In this document: piece by piece, positions 27,323 to 41,342 of the stretch
Position numbering within the stretch: position 1 is the first letter of the stretch
Layout of the letters: the number at the start of each line of letters is the position of its first letter
Assembly (NCBI RefSeq): GCF_029582805.1
Contig: NZ_JAKKUT010000001.1
Location: 427,068 to 491,067, forward strand
Length of the DNA: 64,000 bases
DNA from: Candidatus Synechococcus calcipolaris G9
Lineage (GTDB): Bacteria; Cyanobacteriota; Cyanobacteriia; Thermosynechococcales; Thermosynechococcaceae
Direction: 5' to 3'
Translations under genes and position numbers: made by a program
Notes under the pieces: generated by a model
Databases searched by the model: none
What the model saw: the letters and a program-made list of their open reading frames with translations, nothing else
Told to the model about the DNA's origin: nothing

Positions 27323-30300
27323 CTAACGGCACTGCTCCGCTAGGACAGACTCTACGGGTACACCATTAATCTCTAAGACTGTCTCTTCTCCTTCTTCGAG
27401 CAATTGACAGAGGCTCTGCTCTAAGGGCATCTCCTCCTCTTCTTGACCTTGCAAAATGGTGGATAGGTTAGAGGGTAGGGGCAAATCTACCGGAGTAAAA
27501 ATGATCGGGGGTGCAGAACCTGAGCTTGAGCTAGTTGGAGCCATTGGAGGTGCTGGCGAAGATGGTGGAGATGGTACGGCAGGTATATTGATCGTTGGTG
27601 CGGTTGAAAGAATCACCGGACTGGATGTAACCGGAGGTAAGGGAGGTGCTGCCACACTATAAACAAAACCATTCCCAGCAAACCCTGATGGTGCGGGATA
27701 GGTCGTACTAAACTGTTGTGAGCCTCCCAAGACTGACCAGCCATTGATATTTCCTTCTGGACTGGTGGCATAAACCAGCCAACGTCCCCCTGCTATTAAC
27801 GCATTCACTCCGGCATTGTTGATAAAGTTTTGGTCAGCAGCCAAGGTAATATCTTGGGTGGCATTGATCGGTTGATTCAGCGTAATATTGCCGGTAGTGG
27901 ATTGCAACACCACCGTCTGACTATTTTCAATCCCATCTGGATTCACCGTATCCACTGCCAAATCGGTTCCTGTCACCACAGTAATATTGCCTGTAGTATT
28001 GGCTGCAATGGTTTGGATTTGATTATTAGGATGATCTAACGTGGTATCGCCTGAACCCGTAATCGCCACGCCTTGTGCAATAATTGGGGCCGTTTGAGTA
28101 ACCGTTCCACCGGAATTCAGTGTGAGATTATTGGCACCAACATTTAGGGCAGAATTAATTTGAATACCACCGCTACTGTTCCGTAACTGCAAATTGTCAT
28201 TAAAGGGATGGACAGTTCCAGCAACTTCAATGAGGCCAGTACCATTCTCCGACCCAATCGTGATTAAGCTAAACCCATCTTGAATTTTACTGAGGGCAGT
28301 ATTGCTAAGATTGAGCGTGCCTGTTGCACCATTACCAATGCCAATCGAGGTTGCCGGATCAAGGGGGCGAATTAGTAAAGTCCCGTTGCCAGTGGTTTCC
28401 AGTTGCATCCAATCTAAGTTTTGCCTATCTGCGGTTAAGGTAATCGAGTTGGTGCTAGTGCCTCGAATGACACCCTGTAAGAAATCGCCAGCACCCGAAG
28501 TTCCGCCAGAGGTAAAAATACCTGGATCATTATTTGCACTACTACCTGTAACAGAAATATTGCCCCCGCTAATGATTTGTCCGCCCCATTGCTGCAGAAT
28601 TCCAAAGTTATTTGCCCCACCTGTTGCTTGGGAGTGTCCGGTCAGGTCAACCGTGCCACTGGTACTGGTGATAGTTGCTCCTTTTCCAGTTAGAAATATC
28701 CCGTAATTACTGGAACCACCCGTGCCACTTGTGCCGGAATAAATGATGTTACCTGTGGTGGTACGAGTAATCGCATTACTGTTAGTGGCATCGGTATTAC
28801 TCTCATGATAAACACCATGATTTCTACCATTGTCACCCATCCCACCCTGGCCCGTTAGCGAAATTTGACCGCTGCCACTCTCGATCAGGGTTGTTGTATT
28901 TGCAACCCCATTGCCGAAGTAAATGCCGTGATTCCGTTCAGAGCCAGTTCCCACTGTTCCACCTTTACCCAGGTAGGTAATGCTTCCAGAACTGCTTATA
29001 ACTTGGGAACCGCCAGTTTGACTAATGCCACGATTCCCAGAGCCGATATTGCCCCCGCGTCCTGAAAGGTTGATATTCCCACCTGTAGTCGTCAGATTGG
29101 CATTATTTAAGTTGATGCCAACAAAATTTCCGCTAGCTGGAGTTGCCCCTTGGTTAGCATTGAGAGTGATGCTACCATTTCCAGTAGAAATATTGCTACT
29201 CGTTAATGCAATCGAGCGGTCAGCATCAAGTAAGACATTCTGATTGGTTGTGGTAATGCTGCTGCCAGAGTTGCCAATAATGTTCTGCCCGGCCTGTAAG
29301 GTGATGCTGCCTGCTGTTTCTGTAGTATTTCCCGTGGATAAGTTGCCGTTGAGATTGATTGTGCCTGTACCTGTGGGCGTGCGAATTAATACATTGTCCT
29401 GAAATGCCGCCGTCCGAATATCAATATTTCCGCTGCCAGTTGCGCTACCAATCGTGATTTGACTAAATCCATCCCCTAAGCGGTTAATTTCGGCAGTATC
29501 CAGGTTAAGGGTTCCCATTGCCCCGTCGCCAATGCCAATCGTGGTGCTTGCGGTTACGGGTTGAATAAACAGTTGACCATTGGTGCTTTGGACTGTGCCA
29601 GAGAGTAAATCAAGTTCATTCGTATTGAGCGTTATGGTGCCACCACTCCCTGCTTGAATCGCTCCAGTTGTGTTGGAATTCAGGGTGATTTTGCCAGCAG
29701 CTCCAGTGGTAATAGTAAGAGGGGCATTGGCGGCTGTTGCGCGAACACGGGATGGATTGACCGGTGAAGGATTTATCAAGTTGAAGTTACGTCCGGCCGT
29801 GGCCTGGAAACCATTGGCCCCGGTTGCCGTTAACCAAGTCGTGTTTTGTACCGTAATATCTCGATCTGCATTCAAAATAATTTGTGATGCTGTAATATCT
29901 CCATACTGATTGGTAAAGGGCTGTGTTCCGAGAATAATATCTTCACCCGCATCGAGCGTAACAATATTACTCGGGCCAATGGCTTCAAACGGAGAATTAG
30001 TAGCTCCAGCGATGACGTTAATTGTGCCGCCAGCGGTTAAAGTAACATTTCCTGGAGTCCGAATCCCACGGGTTGTATTGACAGTACCCACGGTAAAACT
30101 ATCGGCATCGGTATAACTAATAGCTCCAGTGGTATTGCTAGCCAGGGTGGTGATGTTATTACTCGTATTGGTCAGGGTAAAGGTACCAGCCCCTAAAAGT
30201 TCTAAACCATTGGCAGTAATCACTCCTGTTCCATTTTGAGTCACATTTCCCGCTGCATTGAGGGTAATGTTGCCTGTTGAGGTTAAGCCTGTTGTATTAA

Positions 30301-32410
30301 CGGTGCCAATTGCAAATCCATCGGCATCCCGGAAACTAATGGCTCCGGTGGTATTGCCTGCCAAGGTGGTGATGTTGTTACCGGCATTCGTCAGGGTAAA
30401 AGTACCAGCCCCTAAAAGTTCTAAACCATTGGCGGTAATCACTCCTGTTCCATTTTGAGTGACACTTCCCCCGGCATTGAGGGTGACATTCTCCCCAGTA
30501 TTGATGGTGTTGTTAATAGCAATGTCATGAGTACTGTTTAAAACAACTGGGCCAGTGGTTGAACTTAAGGGGCTATTGACAATCACACTAGAACCAGCCG
30601 TCAACCCATTATTCGTGGCTGTAATCCCGTTGGGAGCCGTGATTCGGTTCAAGGTAATATTGCCCGTTTCGGCGGCGGTGCCAGTTCGTCCATCTCCTGT
30701 GCTAATGGTGGCTGTTAAAGAACTAATCGCTGATGGGAGGATGGTACTACCAAATGTAATAAACGCAGGCCCATTGTCGCGATTCGCAGCAATGACACCA
30801 TTTGCATTGGATTCATTAGCCACTAAAACGATATTGAGATTTGGTTGAGAAAACGAAATGTTAAAGTTAATGGAGCGTCCGGCCTGGAGTGTTAGAGTAC
30901 CATTAGCCGGATTTAAAAAAGTATATCCATTGTTTGGATCAATAGAGATAATATCATTGTTCGCTTGTAGCGTTACGCTTGCTGTCGTCAGTGCATTCGC
31001 TAAACTAAAAATCGTGATTGTGACATCATCTGCTGGATTATTGGCAAACAAGAGGTTTGTCACAGAAGAAGGTGGGCCGCTTGGCTCTATGGATATATTT
31101 TTGGGATCAAGCAAGAGGGTTCCGGTTTGTCCCAGAGTTGCACGTAGATCCGTCATACCGTCATAAACAAGACGTTCTCGACCCGAAACTTCGGCAAAGC
31201 CGCCATCGCCACCTAATATCCCGCCTTGGGCTGAAATAAATCCATGAAAGATGGTGCTGTTATCCGCCCAATTAATCACCGTGCCGCCCTGACCTTGAGT
31301 TACTGCATCGGCATTCATGACGGTGTTGTTGTCCACATACAGGTGTTGGGCATTGAAACTACTATCTAAGCGACCTGTGCCTGCACTATCCCCTAGATAA
31401 TCTCCACCTCCCAAGATGGTGCCGCCCCCCGCACCTCCAGAGGCATTCAACTGGGCATTCACAAAGGCAACATTAGAGCCAAGAACATTAATCTGTCCCC
31501 CCACTCCCTCAGGACTCGACACATCCATCGTGCCACTAGCAACCGTCGTTGCCCCCTCCACTGGCATATTCACCTTACTGGGGTCATGCACCAAGCTAAT
31601 CGAGCCATCGGGATTATGTACCACACTATTGACCCGTGGACGATCTGTTCCCCCCGTAATTAATCGGGGTAAGTCAACGGCTTCAATCACCCCATCTTCG
31701 GGAATCCGATCCGCCGGAATCTCTAAACTGAGGATCATTCCCTCCTGGGAAATCCGTACCATTCCCGTCTCTGGAACCGCCTGAATTGTGATCCGTCCCC
31801 CCGGAGCCGATAGGGTTCCTGTATTGAACACCTGATGACCCATCAATGTTAAATTTTGCGCTGGGCCAACGGCTAAATTCCCTTCATTGACGATAATTCC
31901 CGTGCTTAAAAACTCAAACCCGGTGGGGTTCCCGACGAGGTTGGCGTAGTCATTAAACCCATTAATGTCAAAAACGCCGCCGTCAAAATGTACTCGATGA
32001 GCCGTTGAGGCATGGAACGCTGCCGGTACGTTTAACTGGGCATTGGGCCCGAAAACAATTCCTGCTGGATTGAGCAAATAGAGGTTGCTATTGCCTCCCG
32101 TTACCTGAATTAAGCCATTGATATAGCTGACATCGCCACCATTCACGCCCGCCAGGATATTTTGAACCTTGGAATTGGATAAAAAATTAGCAATCTGACC
32201 ATCACTAAGACCAAATTGCTTAAAAAGGTGAAATAAATTTTTGCCATCTCTGGAAAACGCACCACCGCCAATATCAAACTGCTGACCATTTACGGTAACG
32301 GTTGTACCTGTGCCTCCAACGGCTGGTGTAATCTGGGCGATCGCAGGTAAGGGAAGAAGACAACCCAACACGGCAAGAGGAGCAAACCATCGACGGATGA
32401 TGTTAAACAT
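27323..32410 (-). CDS. Two-partner-secretion (FHA-type) filamentous exoprotein
   Basis: A 1695-residue secreted protein. A signal peptide (MFNIIRRWFAPLAVLGCLLPLPAIA) leads to a TPS domain with the filamentous hemagglutinin signature: ITPAVGGTGTTVTVNGQQFDI, NLFHLFKQFGLSDGQIANF, GGDVSYINGLIQV and NLYLLNPAGIVFGPNAQLNVPAAF. A long beta-helix of Asn/Thr/Gly repeats follows, then a Pro/Ser-rich linker and a short acidic C-terminus with two cysteines (SLCQLLEE, LAEQC). Export needs an outer-membrane TpsB partner, which is not adjacent. One 73-residue segment is duplicated. It probably acts as a surface adhesin. Confidence 0.9.
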   Translation of the reverse strand: MFNIIRRWFAPLAVLGCLLPLPAIAQITPAVGGTGTTVTVNGQQFDIGGGAFSRDGKNLFHLFKQFGLSDGQIANFLSNSKVQNILAGVNGGDVSYINGLIQVTGGNSNLYLLNPAGIVFGPNAQLNVPAAFHASTAHRVHFDGGVFDINGFNDYANLVGNPTGFEFLSTGIIVNEGNLAVGPAQNLTLMGHQVFNTGTLSAPGGRITIQAVPETGMVRISQEGMILSLEIPADRIPEDGVIEAVDLPRLITGGTDRPRVNSVVHNPDGSISLVHDPSKVNMPVEGATTVASGTMDVSSPEGVGGQINVLGSNVAFVNAQLNASGGAGGGTILGGGDYLGDSAGTGRLDSSFNAQHLYVDNNTVMNADAVTQGQGGTVINWADNSTIFHGFISAQGGILGGDGGFAEVSGRERLVYDGMTDLRATLGQTGTLLLDPKNISIEPSGPPSSVTNLLFANNPADDVTITIFSLANALTTASVTLQANNDIISIDPNNGYTFLNPANGTLTLQAGRSINFNISFSQPNLNIVLVANESNANGVIAANRDNGPAFITFGSTILPSAISSLTATISTGDGRTGTAAETGNITLNRITAPNGITATNNGLTAGSSVIVNSPLSSTTGPVVLNSTHDIAINNTINTGENVTLNAGGSVTQNGTGVITANGLELLGAGTFTLTNAGNNITTLAGNTTGAISFRDADGFAIGTVNTTGLTSTGNITLNAAGNVTQNGTGVITANGLELLGAGTFTLTNTSNNITTLASNTTGAISYTDADSFTVGTVNTTRGIRTPGNVTLTAGGTINVIAGATNSPFEAIGPSNIVTLDAGEDIILGTQPFTNQYGDITASQIILNADRDITVQNTTWLTATGANGFQATAGRNFNLINPSPVNPSRVRATAANAPLTITTGAAGKITLNSNTTGAIQAGSGGTITLNTNELDLLSGTVQSTNGQLFIQPVTASTTIGIGDGAMGTLNLDTAEINRLGDGFSQITIGSATGSGNIDIRTAAFQDNVLIRTPTGTGTINLNGNLSTGNTTETAGSITLQAGQNIIGNSGSSITTTNQNVLLDADRSIALTSSNISTGNGSITLNANQGATPASGNFVGINLNNANLTTTGGNINLSGRGGNIGSGNRGISQTGGSQVISSSGSITYLGKGGTVGTGSERNHGIYFGNGVANTTTLIESGSGQISLTGQGGMGDNGRNHGVYHESNTDATNSNAITRTTTGNIIYSGTSGTGGSSNYGIFLTGKGATITSTSGTVDLTGHSQATGGANNFGILQQWGGQIISGGNISVTGSSANNDPGIFTSGGTSGAGDFLQGVIRGTSTNSITLTADRQNLDWMQLETTGNGTLLIRPLDPATSIGIGNGATGTLNLSNTALSKIQDGFSLITIGSENGTGLIEVAGTVHPFNDNLQLRNSSGGIQINSALNVGANNLTLNSGGTVTQTAPIIAQGVAITGSGDTTLDHPNNQIQTIAANTTGNITVVTGTDLAVDTVNPDGIENSQTVVLQSTTGNITLNQPINATQDITLAADQNFINNAGVNALIAGGRWLVYATSPEGNINGWSVLGGSQQFSTTYPAPSGFAGNGFVYSVAAPPLPPVTSSPVILSTAPTINIPAVPSPPSSPAPPMAPTSSSSGSAPPIIFTPVDLPLPSNLSTILQGQEEEEMPLEQSLCQLLEEGEETVLEINGVPVESVLAEQCR
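30056..30493 (-). repeat. Two tandem 219-bp copies inside the exoprotein gene
   Basis: Two in-frame copies of about 219 bp (73 residues) lie at 30056-30274 and 30275-30493. The shared core encodes NGTGVITANGLELLGAGTFTLTN followed by NNITTLA and NTTGAIS. Copies differ at scattered third positions and a few residues, so the duplication is recent but not brand new. It adds one turn-set to the predicted beta-helix. Confidence 0.85.
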
Positions 32411-34454: not shown

Positions 34455-34486
34455 TTACATAGTAGTAATTTTACATAGTAGTAATT
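34455..34486. repeat. Exact two-copy tandem repeat, 16-bp unit
   Basis: TTACATAGTAGTAATT occurs twice head to tail (34455-34470 and 34471-34486), ending 5 bp before the TCATCT direct-repeat operator of the DUF2808 gene. It may affect or extend the control region. Confidence 0.85.
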
Positions 34487-34490
34487 TTCG

Positions 34491-34511
34491 CTTCATCTGG
34501 GACTCATCTTC
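34491..34511 (+). promoter_or_regulatory. Candidate response-regulator operator (TCATCT-N5-TCATCT), DUF2808 promoter
   Basis: TCATCT at 34493-34498 and 34504-34509, start-to-start 11 bp, in a 21-bp block that is 20/21 identical to the block at 37553-37573. An 11-bp direct repeat is the classical layout for a head-to-tail OmpR/PhoB dimer. A weak -10-like sequence follows about 10 bp downstream (TCATAA, 34520-34525), so the site would overlap the -35 position, as in class II activation. The DUF2808 start codon is 50 bp further on. Confidence 0.65.
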
Positions 34512-34561: not shown

Positions 34562-35107
34562 ATGAAACGCTTCAAACATCAGTTTATTTCAGCCCTTGTC
34601 CTCTCAAGTCTATCTTTGGCATTACCGGCGAAGGCCATAGAATTCCCTAGTGGTGAAACTGCCTTTGCAAGCCCTCCTGCCCTAGTGAGTGCCATCACTC
34701 CCACCAATGAGCGTGGTATTTGGGGCCCAACCTACTACTTCACACTCACTGTTCCTGAGACAGCGGGAGTACCCGTTCAGGCAGTCAAAATTAGCCAAGG
34801 AACCAATCAAGAAACTATTCATTTTATTGGCCACGAAAGTCGGGCCTTCCAGGGAACTCGCCAGGCCCAGGGAACTTCGATTCCACTCATGAGTATAGGC
34901 GGCCCAGATTTAGATCCCCAGGAAACCCTAGTGGTATTTGAGCAGCCCATCATGCCAGGTAGTACGGCCACAATTGCCCTCAAAGCTCAGCGGAATCCCG
35001 AATTTTCTGGAACCTATGTGTTAGGAATGACAGCAATTCCCGTAGGGGACAATGGTCGGCCCCAGTTCCTTGGCTATCAACAAATTTCAATCTACGGCGA
35101 TCTCTAG
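34562..35107 (+). CDS. DUF2808 exported protein
   Basis: A 181-residue exported protein. A signal peptide (MKRFKHQFISALVLSSLSLALPAKA) is followed by a beta-rich domain with IEFPSGETAFASPPALVSAI, YYFTLTVPETAGVPVQAVKI and NPEFSGTYVLGMTAIPVG, the DUF2808 pattern. These cyanobacterial proteins are often strongly regulated by environmental signals. A ribosome site (CGGAGAACACC) precedes the ATG. The promoter carries the same direct-repeat operator as the redox cassette, so the two are probably co-regulated. Function unknown. Confidence 0.87.
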   Translation: MKRFKHQFISALVLSSLSLALPAKAIEFPSGETAFASPPALVSAITPTNERGIWGPTYYFTLTVPETAGVPVQAVKISQGTNQETIHFIGHESRAFQGTRQAQGTSIPLMSIGGPDLDPQETLVVFEQPIMPGSTATIALKAQRNPEFSGTYVLGMTAIPVGDNGRPQFLGYQQISIYGDL

Positions 35108-35245: not shown

Positions 35246-35920
35246 CTAATCACGTAGAACATAGCCTACACCACGAATGGTATGGATTAAGCGTTGAGGA
35301 TTTTTTGCTTCTAGTTTAATTCGTAAGGCACGAATATATACTTCAATAATGTTTGACTCTCCCATAAAGTCATATTTCCATACATGCTCTAAAATTTGAT
35401 CACGAGTCATGACTTGGCGAGGATGGCGAAGAAGAAATTCTAGGAGATCAAACTCTTTTGCCGTTAGATCAATGGGTTGATCGGCTCGGTAAACTTCACG
35501 GGTTAGACAGTTTAATCGTAAATCTTCAAATTCATAGGTTTCAGGATCACTTGATTCGTTGCGCCGCAGTTGTGCCTTTACCCGTGCTAATAATTCTTCC
35601 ATGCTAAAGGGCTTGGTTACATAGTCATCGGCTCCAGCATTCAGGCCTGTGACGCGATCGGGAATATCGTCCTTTGCCGTTAGCATGATAATGGGAATTT
35701 TCTCCCCGGTACTGCGTAGACGTAAACAGAGATCTAAGCCAGAAACACCGGGCAACATCCAATCTAAAATTAGTAAATCTGGTTGGAGGTTGCGGGCTTG
35801 GACTAAGCCATCCATTCCGTTGGCCACTGTTGTTACGGTATAGCCTTCGAGCTTTAATTCAGAAGAAATGAAGCCAGCCAATTTGGGATCATCTTCAATG
35901 ACAAGGATGTGGTGGGTCAT
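35246..35920 (-). CDS. OmpR-family response regulator
   Basis: A 224-residue two-domain regulator. The receiver (1-120) has HILVIEDDPKLAGF, phospho-Asp D53 in LLILDWMLPG, IIMLTAKDD and the lysine in VTKPFSMEELLARV. The DNA-binding winged helix (about 128-222) has LTAKEFDLLEFLLRHPRQVMTRDQILEHVWKYDF and RLIHTIRGVGYVLRD. It overlaps the upstream kinase by 4 bp, so the pair is an operon. OmpR-class proteins bind direct repeats about 10-11 bp apart, matching the two TCATCT-N5-TCATCT sites flanking this gene region. I infer it controls both. Confidence 0.93.
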   Translation of the reverse strand: MTHHILVIEDDPKLAGFISSELKLEGYTVTTVANGMDGLVQARNLQPDLLILDWMLPGVSGLDLCLRLRSTGEKIPIIMLTAKDDIPDRVTGLNAGADDYVTKPFSMEELLARVKAQLRRNESSDPETYEFEDLRLNCLTREVYRADQPIDLTAKEFDLLEFLLRHPRQVMTRDQILEHVWKYDFMGESNIIEVYIRALRIKLEAKNPQRLIHTIRGVGYVLRD

Positions 35921-37365
35921 TTAGGGGGTATCCAAATAGGGATCATGATTGTAAAAATACTGCCTTCCTGGGGGCTAGATCGCAGGGTAATGCGGCCCTG
36001 CATTCCTTCGACTAAGCTTTTGGCGATCGCCAGGCCCAAACCAGTACCATCCCGTGAGCGGGTCATGGATTCATCTACCCGGTAGAATCGTTCAAAGATC
36101 CGTTGCTGATGGGGGAAGGGAATACCAATGCCATGATCTTGAATATGAATGAGGGCCCATTTTTCCTTTTTTTCTAACACCAAGTCAATGGGTTCCTCTG
36201 GTTCAGAATATTTAATCGCATTATCGACTAAGTTAATAAGCACCTGTTGTAGTCGATCTTGATCGGCACAGACGACAATATCTTCTTGAGTGATTAATAA
36301 ATTGATTTGACGATGACTCACTTTTTGACTCATGGCAGCAACTTCAGCAACCAAGGTATTCAAAATCACTGGGGCAAGCCGAAAATGTAAATGGCCGTTA
36401 TCAACTCGCGCAAGATCCAGTAAATCCTGAAGCATACGGATGGTGCGTTCGGTTTCTGCGGTTGCCGTTTCCAGGGCGTGTTGTTGATAGGTGTTCAAAT
36501 TTGTACCCCGATGGAGTAAGCTTCTGAGGTAGCCGACGACAACGGTGAGGGGGGTTCGCAATTCATGGGATACATTACCAACAAATTGCTGTTGTTGCTC
36601 CCAAGCCCCGGATAGGCGAAATAACATTTCATTAAATGATTTGGCTAGGCCTAAAATTTCATCGGGGGCGCGATTGAGTTCTAGTTTGGCTCCCTTCAAG
36701 TCATCGGCGGAAATAGCACTGGCAACCTGGCTCATCTGCTCTAGGGGTTCCATGGCTTTACAAATTCGTTTGGAAATGGCCGCAATCAGAATGGCGATCG
36801 CCAAGAAACTCACCCACAGGAGTCGCCATAGGCCGGCATTTAATTTTTGTTGATCTTCAGTAATGTCTTGCACCAGGTAAAGTTTGCCAAAGGATTCCCC
36901 GGCTAAATTCAAGGGGGTTCCACACAACACAATATCGCGATCGCCAAAACGAACCACTTGGGGACGTTCAGGAATATTAGCCAAGGTATGTACCTGACGA
37001 ATCGTTGGGGAGGCCGGTTCAAGATGGGGAGAATGGGCTAACAGGTTTCCCTCTGGACTTTCCACCCAAATGGCTAATCCGGGGCTGGCCACTCGATGAA
37101 TCGTTTGTTCTAAACCGGTTTCCACTTGGTCAAAGTCACTATAAAGCTCCAATTGCTCTGGAAAACGCATGGCAATGTATTCTAGGGTTTGTTTGTGGCC
37201 AGCTACCAGGTTTTGCTCTAGTTGCCAACCCGCCCAAACCGTGACACTACCCAGGCCAAGAATCGACAGGATGACGAGTTCTAGGGTCAGCCTAAATTGC
37301 AAGGAGGAGGTAGAAAGTTGCCTACGGGAAAAACGGCGAAGGATACTGGAAAGGATCGGATGCAT
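35917..37365 (-). CDS. Membrane sensor histidine kinase, operon partner of the regulator
   Basis: A 482-residue kinase. The first helix (LTLELVILSILGLGSVTVWAGW) and the second (LLWVSFLAIAILIAAISKRI) enclose a periplasmic sensor of about 130 residues. A HAMP-like segment with PLEQMSQVASAISADDLKGA follows. GNVSHELRTPLTVVVGYLRSLL (phospho-His about 265), LINLVDNAIKYSEPEEP, IQDHGIGIPFPHQQRIFERFYR and GTGLGLAIAKSLV complete the transmitter. Its stop overlaps the regulator start (ATGA-type, 35917-35920). It is transcribed divergently from the redox cassette. A TCATCT half-site also lies in this strand's leader (37444-37439). Confidence 0.92.
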   Translation of the reverse strand: MHPILSSILRRFSRRQLSTSSLQFRLTLELVILSILGLGSVTVWAGWQLEQNLVAGHKQTLEYIAMRFPEQLELYSDFDQVETGLEQTIHRVASPGLAIWVESPEGNLLAHSPHLEPASPTIRQVHTLANIPERPQVVRFGDRDIVLCGTPLNLAGESFGKLYLVQDITEDQQKLNAGLWRLLWVSFLAIAILIAAISKRICKAMEPLEQMSQVASAISADDLKGAKLELNRAPDEILGLAKSFNEMLFRLSGAWEQQQQFVGNVSHELRTPLTVVVGYLRSLLHRGTNLNTYQQHALETATAETERTIRMLQDLLDLARVDNGHLHFRLAPVILNTLVAEVAAMSQKVSHRQINLLITQEDIVVCADQDRLQQVLINLVDNAIKYSEPEEPIDLVLEKKEKWALIHIQDHGIGIPFPHQQRIFERFYRVDESMTRSRDGTGLGLAIAKSLVEGMQGRITLRSSPQEGSIFTIMIPIWIPPK

Positions 37366-37678
37366 AGGATAGGTTCAAGATTTTTGATTCTACTGTATAG
37401 AATTTTGCCCTAGGGTGAATGACTCGGGACTAAAGCTAAGATGAATTTTCGCTGAAAATGTGAAGGACGCACCCGATGGGTTTTGACTATGAATTGGGTG
37501 AACTGGGGTGGCGACATCGAGGGGAAGGTTTTTTATCTGTTCCCTAGGCGATCTTCATCTGAGACTCATCTTCCTTGAATTTAATAGAGCCTAAGGGAGC
37601 TTAGACAGGATTGTGGCGATCGCAGGTTCTTGGCTCCCCCATCACTCACGTATATTTTTAGTTTGAGGAACCCCATTG
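37366..37678. other. Divergent control region between kinase and redox cassette
   Basis: This 313-bp stretch has no gene. It holds one full direct-repeat operator (37553-37573), a single TCATCT on the reverse strand (37444-37439) with degenerate neighbours at 11-bp steps, a TAATAG -10-like sequence (37582-37587) and the GAGGAA ribosome site (37663-37668) of the lipoprotein gene. The degenerate reverse-strand half-site could allow weaker autoregulation of the kinase/regulator operon. Confidence 0.45.
37553..37573 (+). promoter_or_regulatory. Candidate response-regulator operator (TCATCT-N5-TCATCT), redox cassette promoter
   Basis: TCATCT at 37555-37560 and 37566-37571, again 11 bp start to start, within a 21-bp block identical at 20 positions to the DUF2808 site (34491-34511). 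A TAATAG -10-like sequence starts 10 bp after the second repeat, the same geometry as the other site. The lipoprotein start codon is at 37679. Confidence 0.7.
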
Positions 37679-38257
37679 ATGAAAATTCGATATTTTTCGT
37701 TTCTCGTCCTAGTCTCCCTTTTAGGTCTGGGTGGCTTTACCGCCTGTGGCAATCCCTCTGCCTCCACCGATGAAACGTCAACCATTTCCCAGGCCGATCC
37801 CTGTGCATCAAAGGATCCCTGCGCTGGTAAAGACCCCTGTGCCGGAATGAACCCCTGTGCATCAAAGGATCCCTGCGCTAGTAAAGATCCCTGTGCCGGT
37901 AAATCCATTGGTGGCCCCCTTGCGGCCCAGGTTCAGGGTAAACCCGTTGTCGTCGATATTTTTGCCACTTGGTGTCCGGCCTGTACAAACATTGCCCCCA
38001 CCTTAGAAACCCTGAAAACGGATTACGGAGATCAAATTACGTTTGTGGTATTAGATGTGAGTAATCCTGCCACCACCGCCGCAGCGGAAGCCAAGGCCAA
38101 AGAACTCGGGTTAAGTGACTTTTTGGCTGCCAACAAAACCCAAACAGGCATGGTGACAATCATTGAACCAGAAACCGGTCGAATTCTGGCCCAACACCGC
38201 AATAATCCCAACCTGGCAGATTACACCAAGGTACTTGACACTGCCACCACCCAGTAA
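37679..38257 (+). CDS. Thioredoxin-like lipoprotein with six DPCA[S/G]K repeats
   Basis: A 192-residue lipoprotein. The signal peptide ends in GLGGFTAC, with Cys23 as the lipidation site. Residues 40-75 are six consecutive six-residue repeats (DPCASK, DPCAGK, DPCAGM, NPCASK, DPCASK, DPCAGK), giving six cysteines at exact six-residue steps. The thioredoxin-like domain follows with VVVDIFATWCPACTNIAPTL (C99/C102), TFVVLDVSNP and VTIIEPETGRILAQH. The resolving CxxC is intact, so it is likely a membrane-tethered thiol oxidoreductase. The Cys repeat could bind a soft metal or relay electrons; this is inference. The start is the ATG at 37679, not the TTG before it. Confidence 0.88.
   Translation: MKIRYFSFLVLVSLLGLGGFTACGNPSASTDETSTISQADPCASKDPCAGKDPCAGMNPCASKDPCASKDPCAGKSIGGPLAAQVQGKPVVVDIFATWCPACTNIAPTLETLKTDYGDQITFVVLDVSNPATTAAAEAKAKELGLSDFLAANKTQTGMVTIIEPETGRILAQHRNNPNLADYTKVLDTATTQ
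37796..37903 (+). repeat. Six 18-bp units encoding DPCAxK, arranged as a 54-bp duplication
   Basis: The Cys-repeat region is six 18-bp units. Units 1-3 (37796-37849) and 4-6 (37850-37903) are near-identical at the DNA level, so the array grew by one three-unit duplication. Unit 3's last codon is ATG (Met) and unit 4 begins with AAC (Asn), the only departures from the DPCA[S/G]K pattern. Confidence 0.9.
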
Positions 38258-38356: not shown

Positions 38357-39232
38357 ATGATACCTCCTCCAAAATCTTCCCCTGAAGAGGCGATCGCCCC
38401 TCACACCTCACCCCCCTCCAAAGCCTCTAAAACCAAACAAAAATGGATTCTTTATGGCGGTCTAGGATTACTGGCCCTAGTCCTAGTGATCACCCTGGGT
38501 TCAACCCTTGGCCACCCCCTAGAGCGGGCCATTTCAATCGTGGAAAACTCCTACCAGAAGTGGTTCGATCAGCAGGATACCACCAATCCTTTAGTGCTAT
38601 TGCCGCTGGCCTTTTTAGGGGGCGTATTGGCCAGCATCTCACCTTGCATCCTGGGTCTTTTACCCGTCAATTTGAGTTACATTGGTACCCTGAAAATTAA
38701 ATCTCGCTGGGATGCCTTCACAAAAGCAGGCTTATTTGTTTTAGGTGCTGTAACCATCTTGAGCTTATTTGGACTAGTCTCCTCCTTTGCTGGAGCCGTG
38801 ATGGTGGAATATCGGGGCTATATCAATATTACGGTGGGACTCATTATGGCGGTGATGGGACTATGGCTCATGGGAGTTATCCAGATTCCGTTGCCGCAAT
38901 TAAATCTGAATTTACCCCAAAAAGCTGGCCCCTACGGCGTGGGTCTAACCTTTGCTCTAGTGAGTTCCCCCTGTGCCAGTCCCGTCCTCTTTGCCGTTTT
39001 AGCGGCGGCGGCAGCTACCGGTTCCCAACTATTAGGCACACTGACGATGGTGAGCTACGCCTTGGGATATACCATTCTTATTTTCTTAGCCAGTCTTTTT
39101 ACGGCCCTAGCTAAACAGAGTAATAAATTACTCAAGCATTCGGAAACAATTATTCGTTTAGGAAGTATCGCCTTAATCATGACCGGGGCATACTACCTGT
39201 TCACGGGAACCAAATGGTTTATGGGAGTTTAG
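38357..39232 (+). CDS. CcdA-family thiol-disulfide electron transporter
   Basis: A 291-residue membrane protein of the CcdA/DsbD-beta family. After a cytosolic Pro/Lys-rich N-terminus and one helix comes the six-helix core. Conserved cysteines sit in ASISPCILGLLPVNL (C97) and LVSSPCASPVLFAVL, the pair that carries electrons across the membrane. The family moves reducing power from cytosolic thioredoxin to periplasmic or lumenal CxxC proteins. The start is the ATG at 38357; an upstream frame adds 14 unlikely residues. It lies between the thioredoxin-like lipoprotein and a cytosolic thioredoxin, which are natural acceptor and donor. Confidence 0.9.
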   Translation: MIPPPKSSPEEAIAPHTSPPSKASKTKQKWILYGGLGLLALVLVITLGSTLGHPLERAISIVENSYQKWFDQQDTTNPLVLLPLAFLGGVLASISPCILGLLPVNLSYIGTLKIKSRWDAFTKAGLFVLGAVTILSLFGLVSSFAGAVMVEYRGYINITVGLIMAVMGLWLMGVIQIPLPQLNLNLPQKAGPYGVGLTFALVSSPCASPVLFAVLAAAAATGSQLLGTLTMVSYALGYTILIFLASLFTALAKQSNKLLKHSETIIRLGSIALIMTGAYYLFTGTKWFMGV

Positions 39233-39236
39233 TTTT

Positions 39237-39578
39237 ATGTTTGAACCGATTTCAGATACTGCACCACCAATGAAGGGTCAAAAGTTGCTAGCCCACCTGC
39301 AACAAACAACCGATCAGCCAATTTTGGTGAAATTTGTGGCCCCCCACTGTGCCGCGTGTAAAACCCTAGCCCCAGTGTTAGAGCAACTGATGGAGCAACA
39401 CCAGGATAATCTCCATCTAGTAACGATTGACATCACCCAGGAGCCAGAATTAGCCATGGATTTAGGGGTACGCACAGCCCCCACTGTGGTGCTATTTGCA
39501 AAGGAAACTCTGCGGGGTAAAGTGGATGGCTTAAAACCTAAAAACGTGTACTCAGACTTAGTGGAAGCCCTGTTGTGA
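39237..39578 (+). CDS. Thioredoxin-family protein with HCAAC active site
   Basis: A 113-residue soluble thioredoxin fold: QPILVKFVAPHCAACKTLAPVLEQL (C38/C41), LVTIDITQEPELAMDLGVRTAPTVVLF with the cis-proline in TAPT. The usual WCGPC is replaced by HCAAC, which would change its redox potential. No signal peptide is present. It starts 4 bp after the ccdA-like stop and is the likely cytosolic electron donor to the CcdA-like transporter. Confidence 0.88.
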   Translation: MFEPISDTAPPMKGQKLLAHLQQTTDQPILVKFVAPHCAACKTLAPVLEQLMEQHQDNLHLVTIDITQEPELAMDLGVRTAPTVVLFAKETLRGKVDGLKPKNVYSDLVEALL

Positions 39579-39643: not shown

Positions 39644-40624
39644 ATGAAATGTCTATTTAGAAAACTACTGATTGGTAGCTCCATATCCATGTTTTTTCTC
39701 ATTCTTTTTAGCCTTCGTTTTGGGGAACAGACTAAGTTTGAATTAACAAGTCATGGACAAGAAAATTTCAACTTGAGTCAAGCCCAGCCAACAACGCCGA
39801 GGATTCATCCACGGGATCTGCTAGAGGGCGGCCCCCCCAAAGATGGGATTCCCAGTATTGATACCCCACGGTTTGATACGGCCCAGACAACCCCTTTCTC
39901 CCCGAAAGAACTGGTAATTGGTGTGGTGGTCAATGGTGAAGCCCGCGCCTATCCCTTTGGTATTCTCAACTGGCACGAAATTGTCAATGATCGGGTCGGA
40001 GATGTCAATATTACGGTTTCCTACTGCCCCCTATGTGACACAGGCGTTGTTTTTGAGCGTGGTAACACCACCTACGGCGTATCGGGTAAATTATTTCAAA
40101 GTTGTTTGGTGATGTACGACCGTGAAGATGATACATATTATGCCCAACCTTGGGCCTTGGGGATTATGGGCCCGGAGGTGAATCGTTCCCTAGCCCGCAT
40201 CCCCGGAGTGAAAACCACCTTAAAACAATGGTTAGCCCAGCACCCAGAGAGTCAAATTCTATCCACAGAAACGGGTTATCAACGGGATTACTTTCGCTAT
40301 CCTTACCGAGATTACTACACCAGTAGCCAACTCATCTTTCCTGTCCGCAATCAAGGCCAGCGGGACTTACACCCCAAGGCAATTGTCAGTTATATCTGGG
40401 AGGCAGATCAGCAGACACCCACAAACGAATTTTCGGGAGCTAGTCATCAATTTTCCCATGGTGAATTAAAGCAGGTGGGAACGCAAGTGATTGATTTTAA
40501 TGGCCGTCAGATTCGGGGGCGTTGGCATCCCCAGAAGGAAACCGTCATTGTTGAAGAATTAGATGGAACGGTCATTCCAAGTACGACAGCCTTTGCATTT
40601 GTTTTCCCAGCATTTTTTAACTAA
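39644..40624 (+). CDS. DUF3179 exported protein with CPLC motif
   Basis: A 326-residue protein. A signal peptide (KCLFRKLLIGSSISMFFLILFSL) is followed by DUF3179 with PRDLLEGGPPKDGIPSI, VVNGEARAYPFGILNWHEIVND, NITVSYCPLCDTGVVFER and KLFQSCLVMYDRE. The family is found in bacteria and archaea, and its role is unknown. The CPLC and later Cys suggest a thiol or metal site served by the redox proteins around it. The start is the ATG at 39644 with GAGGG upstream; the TTG at 39629 is less likely. Confidence 0.87.
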   Translation: MKCLFRKLLIGSSISMFFLILFSLRFGEQTKFELTSHGQENFNLSQAQPTTPRIHPRDLLEGGPPKDGIPSIDTPRFDTAQTTPFSPKELVIGVVVNGEARAYPFGILNWHEIVNDRVGDVNITVSYCPLCDTGVVFERGNTTYGVSGKLFQSCLVMYDREDDTYYAQPWALGIMGPEVNRSLARIPGVKTTLKQWLAQHPESQILSTETGYQRDYFRYPYRDYYTSSQLIFPVRNQGQRDLHPKAIVSYIWEADQQTPTNEFSGASHQFSHGELKQVGTQVIDFNGRQIRGRWHPQKETVIVEELDGTVIPSTTAFAFVFPAFFN

Positions 40625-40697
40625 GTTTTTCAAGGTTTTTTAAGGCTTTTCAAGTTTTTAGTTTGTCTAAAGTTCTATACCCACGTTGGAGTATTCT

Positions 40698-41342
40698 ATG
40701 AGTTTTGCCACTGATTTAGCGACCCTGACCCAGAATATGCAACAGCAAATACCCACGGAGATCAAAGAAACCATGATGTCAGCCATGGCCGATCTGATGA
40801 ATTCAGGGTTGGGCGATCGCGCCCTAGGGATTGGGGATGGCATTCCCCGGTTCAGTCTGCCCAACGCATTGGGGGAAGTTGTCAATATTCAAGACTTACT
40901 CAACCATGGCCCTGTGATTATCTGCTTCTATCGGGGCGGCTGGTGTCCCTACTGCAACCTAGAATTACATGCCCTTGAGCAAACCCTGCCCCAATTCAAA
41001 GCTTTGGGTGCTAACCTAGTTGCAATTTCTCCCCAAACCCCAGATCACACCCTTTCTACCGTCGAAAAACAACAACTTTCCTTTGAGGTCTTGAGCGATC
41101 GCGGTAATCAGGTGGCGCGTCAATTTGGTCTAGTCTTTACCGTGCCGGAGATATTACGGCCGATTTACCAGCAGTTTGGTATTGATCTACCCGCTGCCAA
41201 TGGAGATGTTTCCTTTGAGTTACCCGTAGCTGCCACCTATGTGGTTAAGGCAGATGGCACGATCGCCCATGGATTTGTGAACGTGGATTATACCCAGCGT
41301 CAGGATCCTCAAGAGATTTTAGCTGTGTTGAAAAAAGTCTAG
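40698..41342 (+). CDS. Peroxiredoxin-like protein (AhpC/TSA) with WCPYC motif
   Basis: A 214-residue soluble protein. The Prx-like core is [46 protein letters not shown] (C83/C86), with [19 protein letters not shown] and [15 protein letters not shown]. It belongs to the CxxC-type 'redoxin' branch rather than classical Prx with TxxC. It starts at the ATG 40698 (GGAG upstream) and overlaps the convergent chlB end by 4 bp. It closes the redox cassette and is the likely cytosolic peroxidase or thiol oxidase. Confidence 0.88.

Follow-up and report, generated by a model that had tools for sequence, protein, structure and literature searches.

Membrane electron carriers of the CcdA family work together with thioredoxins of the TlpA/HCF164 type in cytochrome c maturation, in a DsbD-like supply of electrons, and SoxV/SoxW is another CcdA–thioredoxin pair. 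In the window, by which we mean the whole 64,000-nucleotide stretch of Candidatus Synechococcus calcipolaris G9 analysed here, there is a comparable pair, a CcdA-family carrier encoded beside a membrane-anchored CxxC fold, although this one has a ladder of regularly spaced cysteines before the fold, lacks the cis-proline and comes with its own two-component system. The ladder itself recalls metallothioneins, being a short, disordered, cysteine-rich repeat, but it is exported, carries one cysteine per unit at a spacing of 5–8 residues, without CxC or CxxC, and is fused to redox domains. Bufferins are secreted cysteine-rich peptides with a neighbouring gene for an MNIO metalloenzyme and are alike in combining such a peptide with an adjoining metalloenzyme gene, although their repeat and partner are unrelated to those of the ladder; bufferin identity was rejected, MNIO (PF05114) being absent from this genome in a search that detects the controls and G323. 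A further likeness is to thiosulfate handling by Sox and TsdA, a SoxA/TsdA cytochrome domain being present on many non-cyanobacterial ladder proteins among the matches listed, although a search of this genome found no YeeE/YedE-type sulfur transporter. While the CcdA–thioredoxin pair is already known, the ladder and its surrounding module appear to be undescribed in the open-access papers searched, from which the ladder peptide strings are absent (bar one unrelated text match), and the broader class of ladders could be the more novel part. Oxygen-using bacteria must manage reactive extracytoplasmic thiols and sulfur species, and the upkeep of reduced exported thiols is poorly known.

The ladder-thioredoxin gene (37679–38257, plus strand) encodes 192 aa, predicted to be a lipoprotein by a lipobox read as FTAC at residues 20–23, with an atypical Phe at −3. 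In the translation, cysteines fall at position 23 (lipobox), at 42, 48, 54, 60, 66, and 72 (ladder), and at 99 and 102 (WCPAC), and Pfam Thioredoxin (PF00085) matches residues 86–135 (E = 8e-11), with WCPAC as the CxxC of a fold spanning 86–191. This bears out the initial annotation, which had described a lipoprotein with six cysteines exactly six residues apart, followed by a WCPAC thioredoxin fold. When the protein sequence was shuffled 200,000 times, six cysteines at this spacing never arose, the longest run being five, reached once. The array, also detected by TRF, consists of six 18-bp units (37796–37903, plus strand) encoding [DN]PCA[SG]K/M, in the order DPCASK-DPCAGK-DPCAGM-NPCASK-DPCASK-DPCAGK, and an NPSA stretch immediately after the lipobox cysteine is a weak seventh unit. 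Its 54-bp halves (37796–37849 and 37850–37903) are identical at 47 of 54 positions (87%), differing in five codons of which three change the amino acid, and the best-matching units are 1/4 (16/18) and 2/5 (17/18), with 3/6 at 14/18. From this pairing and the identity of the halves, a duplication of three units that doubled the array is well supported at the sequence level, as had been proposed, although the word "recent" was too strong for 87% identity and the event was probably not very recent. A minus-strand ORF overlapping the gene (37642–37908) was discarded as an artefact of the repeat. In a structure model built from five sequences, residues 1–65 are disordered (pLDDT < 50) and the thioredoxin domain is folded, resembling PDB thioredoxins at E 2e-5 and also TlpA/ResA-type proteins.

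The ccdA gene starts 99 bp downstream (38357–39232, plus strand) and encodes a CcdA/DsbD-type membrane electron carrier (match to CcdA 5vkv, E = 3e-13) whose orthologue adjoins nearly all copies of the thioredoxin family; a second, diverged CcdA, 31% identical, is encoded elsewhere in this genome. On the same strand follow a second thioredoxin with a CAAC motif (39237–39578), in which a signal peptide was not seen and which is probably the cytoplasmic donor to CcdA, a DUF3179 protein (39644–40624), the sole copy in this genome, and an AhpC/TSA-type peroxiredoxin assigned by profile match (40692–41342); the last two belong to the conserved module at some loci only. Divergent from this operon, on the minus strand, lie a sensor histidine kinase (35917–37365), which is orthologous, by its sensor domain, in about 20 cyanobacterial thioredoxin–CcdA loci, the window included, and an OmpR-type response regulator (35246–35920, profile match).

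We read this locus as a regulated extracytoplasmic thiol-redox module fed by CcdA, with a rough probability of 0.4. We infer that CcdA would relay electrons from the cytoplasmic thioredoxin to the WCPAC motif in the fold of the lipoprotein, and that this fold would hold in the reduced state both the six ladder cysteines of the attached tail and those on other ladder proteins. The tail would act as a disordered, multi-site array of reactive thiols, able to accept sulfane sulfur or oxidising equivalents and recycled by the attached fold, while a thiol-dioxygenase-like cupin (see below) may handle cytoplasmic thiols and the divergent kinase/regulator pair would turn the module on in response to an inducing signal. 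Besides the disorder of the modelled tail, we count in favour of this reading the near-constant presence of ccdA beside family members, the linkage of ladders to the cupin, the ladders on other redox proteins, the conserved kinase/regulator pair with its promoter boxes, and the SoxA/TsdA domains, YeeE/YedE transporters and DUF3179 proteins found at non-cyanobacterial ladders among the matches listed. With modest confidence, sulfur/thiol chemistry is preferred to metal detoxification because the recurrent partners are thiol and sulfur proteins and no metal efflux is found nearby.

The fold itself has a feature that would also suit a different cargo. The cis-proline before the third core strand is absent from the ladder-thioredoxin, where TQTG-M stands in its place, and, judged by direct reading of the strand, proline is absent at this position in 79 of 80 family folds. 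This residue has been described as more conserved than CxxC itself and as a possible guard against metal binding (PMC2757866), and P75 mutants of human TRX1 bind a [2Fe-2S] cluster (PMC6210436). Together with the disordered, cysteine-rich tail of the model and the carriage of ladders by YHS domains, this would fit a metallothionein-like, membrane-held trap for soft metals or metalloids (Cu, Zn, Hg, arsenite) whose thiols are maintained by the fold and CcdA, a possibility that we hold as somewhat unlikely, yet as a serious competitor of the thiol module. A Pseudanabaena plasmid adds to it, having an orthologous system among arsM, arsS, arsR, and a MerA-like oxidoreductase, with Trx, DUF3179, Prx, and DUF2808 on the same plasmid as these arsenic genes, and we count this island and the missing cis-proline against the thiol module. 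At the other ladder loci, however, ArsM was found in 0/186 and ArsS in 4/186; motifs of P1B-type ATPases, multicopper oxidases, and RND pumps occurred in 0/186, the MerA-like proteins near ladders score under the mercuric reductase cut-off, and the spacing of 5–8 comes without the CxC/CxxC pairs typical of metallothioneins. A copper-resistance (CopRS-type) reading was set aside, as the HK matches on plasmids comprised no copper sensor and there were no copper-export motifs nearby.

The thioredoxin domain of the ladder protein is present in 57 of the 390 cyanobacterial genomes searched, and our family table comprises about 80 thioredoxin members. Across these the ladder has 0–11 units, and 0–7 inside one genus, so that the predicted variability in copy number is found and the ladder evolves fast in length; the weight that had been placed on an exact spacing of six is not sustained, the cysteines being 5, 6, 7, or 8 residues apart according to lineage. 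Some members are lipoproteins and others have a plain signal peptide, the ladder being present in 27/29 of the former versus 15/51 of the remaining members (Fisher p = 2e-8, kinship ignored), and the thioredoxin tree requires about 10 ladder gains or losses. Many genomes have tandem thioredoxin pairs with one of the two copies ladderless. Orthologues lacking the repeat in the same context, which the initial annotation had named, together with unchanged behaviour, as evidence against its proposal, do exist: at L225, for example, kinase, promoter box, and CcdA are all kept and the unit has decayed to NPGAAK. With the genetic setting thus unchanged in ladderless orthologues, the core CcdA–thioredoxin pair can do without the ladder, and we count these orthologues against the thiol module.

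Rapid change in copy number and the decay of units in some lineages (NPYAAK, NPFAAK, NPGAAK) are also what would be seen in a nearly neutral, low-complexity repeat spread by replication slippage, but this we regard as very unlikely. The differences between adjacent units are largely silent, those at third codon positions being frequent (Ala 57/126, Cys 47/126) and those at the first two Ala positions numbering 3/126, so that in the Ala codon synonymous changes are far more numerous than replacements; the codons for Pro and Cys, by which the units were found, were excluded from this inference. The bias suggests that the amino acids of the ladder are under selection, in line with what had been proposed for the array. 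Furthermore, the cysteine is missing in only 3 of 181 [ND]PxA units, one of them the NPSA stretch of this protein, the same peptide recurs in several phyla on secreted proteins that have nothing else in common, and its linkage to the cupin is strong.

A combination of ladder and thioredoxin had been considered unusual, a view that gives way to the wide distribution of the ladder across bacteria. A pattern scan of GTDB contigs gave at least 117 ladder stretches; among the matches listed, Proteobacteria have the most, and Rokuibacteriota, Nitrospinota, Methylomirabilota, and cyanobacteria are represented as well. The 55 long ladder proteins among the matches listed include 35 with a SoxA/TsdA cytochrome c domain, eight with cytochrome P460, four with thioredoxin, two with YHS, and one with TPR, and they are outnumbered there by stand-alone secreted ladder proteins of about 80–130 residues. 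Within the 390 cyanobacterial genomes, the six-spaced pattern was found in 58 and the seven-spaced one in 23, as against four for a reversed control pattern, the hosts being YHS, DM13-like (assigned by eye), thioredoxin, and stand-alone proteins; the second ladder gene of this genome, on contig 6, encodes a YHS protein. Two proteins have ladders at both ends, a small OB-like protein (L077:3072–3596) and a TPR protein (L066:340–924). Present by itself or on thioredoxin, YHS, DM13, and cytochrome c proteins, and tied in cyanobacteria to a thiol-dioxygenase relative and a conserved regulator but in other phyla to DUF6969, the ladder offers a testable handle on several uncharacterised genes at once, namely DUF3179, DUF2808, DUF6969, and the cupin. 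This range of hosts bears also on whether the tail could be a thiol relay or docking arm whose sole task is to pass reducing equivalents from the fold to distant envelope substrates (e.g., apocytochromes or the peroxiredoxin). The fusion to a CcdA-fed thioredoxin fold and the peroxiredoxin in the operon would agree with such a role, but an identical type of tail is found stand-alone and on proteins without the fold, and ladderless copies adjoin CcdA, making it quite unlikely.

The cupin is a partner closely tied to ladders in cyanobacteria. By profile it resembles dioxygenases of known structure that act on 3-mercaptopropionate, mercaptosuccinate, and cysteine (E 1e-16 to 6e-13), and its three-His metal site (H109, H111, and H163) is invariant in 14 sequences. 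In the Ser-His-Tyr motif of thiol dioxygenases, however, an invariant Asn177 stands in place of the His, as judged by eye from the alignment, so that the protein is predicted to be thiol-dioxygenase-like, with uncertain activity. It is present in 71/75 ladder-bearing cyanobacterial genomes versus 113/315 without a detected ladder (p = 3e-22, kinship ignored), and lies within 6 kb of the ladder in 32 of the 45 genomes with listed positions. It stands between kinase and thioredoxin in 19/51 thioredoxin–CcdA loci and near YHS and stand-alone ladder genes in 10/20 loci; in this genome it lies 16 bp behind the YHS-ladder gene. Among thioredoxin loci alone the ladder–cupin link reads 23/7/0/17, which on well-supported branches of the thioredoxin tree amounts to one independent contrast, and the sharing of the cupin by ladders on different host proteins is the stronger argument. 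The 113 cupin genomes without a detected ladder, and the fact that the thiol-dioxygenase link rests on neighbourhood, we count against the thiol module. Nothing on this cupin was found in open-access papers.

Outside cyanobacteria, among the matches listed, DUF6969 is encoded in 68/115 ladder loci, the YeeE/YedE-type sulfur transporter in 21/115, a MerA-like FAD oxidoreductase in 20/115, DUF3179 in 16/115, and TVP38 in 14/115. Most of the genomes checked encode DUF3179 and DUF6969 only once, so that their nearness to ladders greatly exceeds what chance would give, with the reservation that the loci are themselves related. DUF6969 (e.g., L036:2419–3114) has an invariant His-rich core, YYYHxHR...EHGHFH; its fold was modelled confidently (pLDDT 88) with no match in the PDB, and the open-access papers searched held nothing on it. 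Grouping the cupin and DUF6969 in one family was rejected, as comparison shows them to be unrelated. The MerA-like oxidoreductase, often fused to TVP38, recurs near ladders in several phyla (L264:6456–8045; L089:2013–4226).

That ladder genes of different architecture have one neighbouring cytoplasmic enzyme in common per phylum could mean that the cysteines are enzymatically modified before export, by the cupin in cyanobacteria or DUF6969 elsewhere, in analogy to the action of MNIO enzymes on bufferin precursors, and the frequency of DUF6969, its single copy, and its many invariant His would agree. The unrelatedness of the two enzymes, the lack of an identified leader or recognition element, the occurrence of the cupin in many genomes without a detected ladder, and the fact that for no known member of the thiol dioxygenase family did this analysis show an action on peptides make this distinctly unlikely. 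A broader proposition, which we consider unlikely, is that [DN]PC[AG] ladders as a whole are undescribed, widespread, exported multi-thiol modules on many redox proteins, with cysteines modified or processed by a dedicated cytoplasmic enzyme, the thiol-dioxygenase relative in cyanobacteria and DUF6969 in other phyla, and under a dedicated regulator.

Regulation of the thiol module is indicated by the sequence between the divergent genes. A Gibbs search of 20 such regions returned two strongly conserved boxes, with information contents of 19.6 and 19.5 versus 9.7 in shuffles. Box B (CATCTGAGACTCATCTTC, 37556–37573), 105 bp upstream of the ladder gene, is found in 20/20 divergent regions, and box A (AAGATGAATTTTCGCTGA, 37438–37455), 73 bp upstream of the kinase gene, in 18/20. 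The reverse complement of box B contains GATGA-N6-GATG, and in each of the boxes GATGA-type direct repeats of 11-bp period can be discerned, an arrangement often used by OmpR-family regulators. Only two exact box B sites exist in the 3.3-Mb genome, that of the ladder gene and another (34494–34511) 50 bp upstream of the gene for a secreted DUF2808 protein (34562–35107, plus strand), a probable member of the ladder operon's regulon. In the Pseudanabaena plasmid, box B stands before the thioredoxin–CcdA operon and between the Trx–Prx operon and DUF3179. The YHS-ladder/cupin locus of this genome has no box B, and is therefore probably outside the control of the kinase/regulator pair; it has an ECF sigma/anti-sigma pair instead, as do about ten thioredoxin loci without the kinase. 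At L261:7008–8308 an ECF sigma and an anti-sigma gene lie beside the YHS-ladder/cupin pair, with homologues in about ten ladder-thioredoxin loci.

A small version of the ladder system is carried by plasmid pAQ7 of Picosynechococcus sp. PCC 7002, where a stand-alone ladder lipoprotein is encoded opposite cupin, kinase, and regulator. Ergothioneine genes adjoin the system in this strain, and were discarded as a general feature since other loci do not share them. The pAQ7 lipoprotein (L281:13273–13554, 93 aa) has no listed gene, a hypothetical protein (RS16885) that overlaps it being annotated on the opposite strand. In the window, a perfect 16-bp tandem duplication (34455–34488) lies directly upstream of the DUF2808 box B, and a filamentous-haemagglutinin-like secreted protein of 1695 aa is encoded on the minus strand at 27323–32410.
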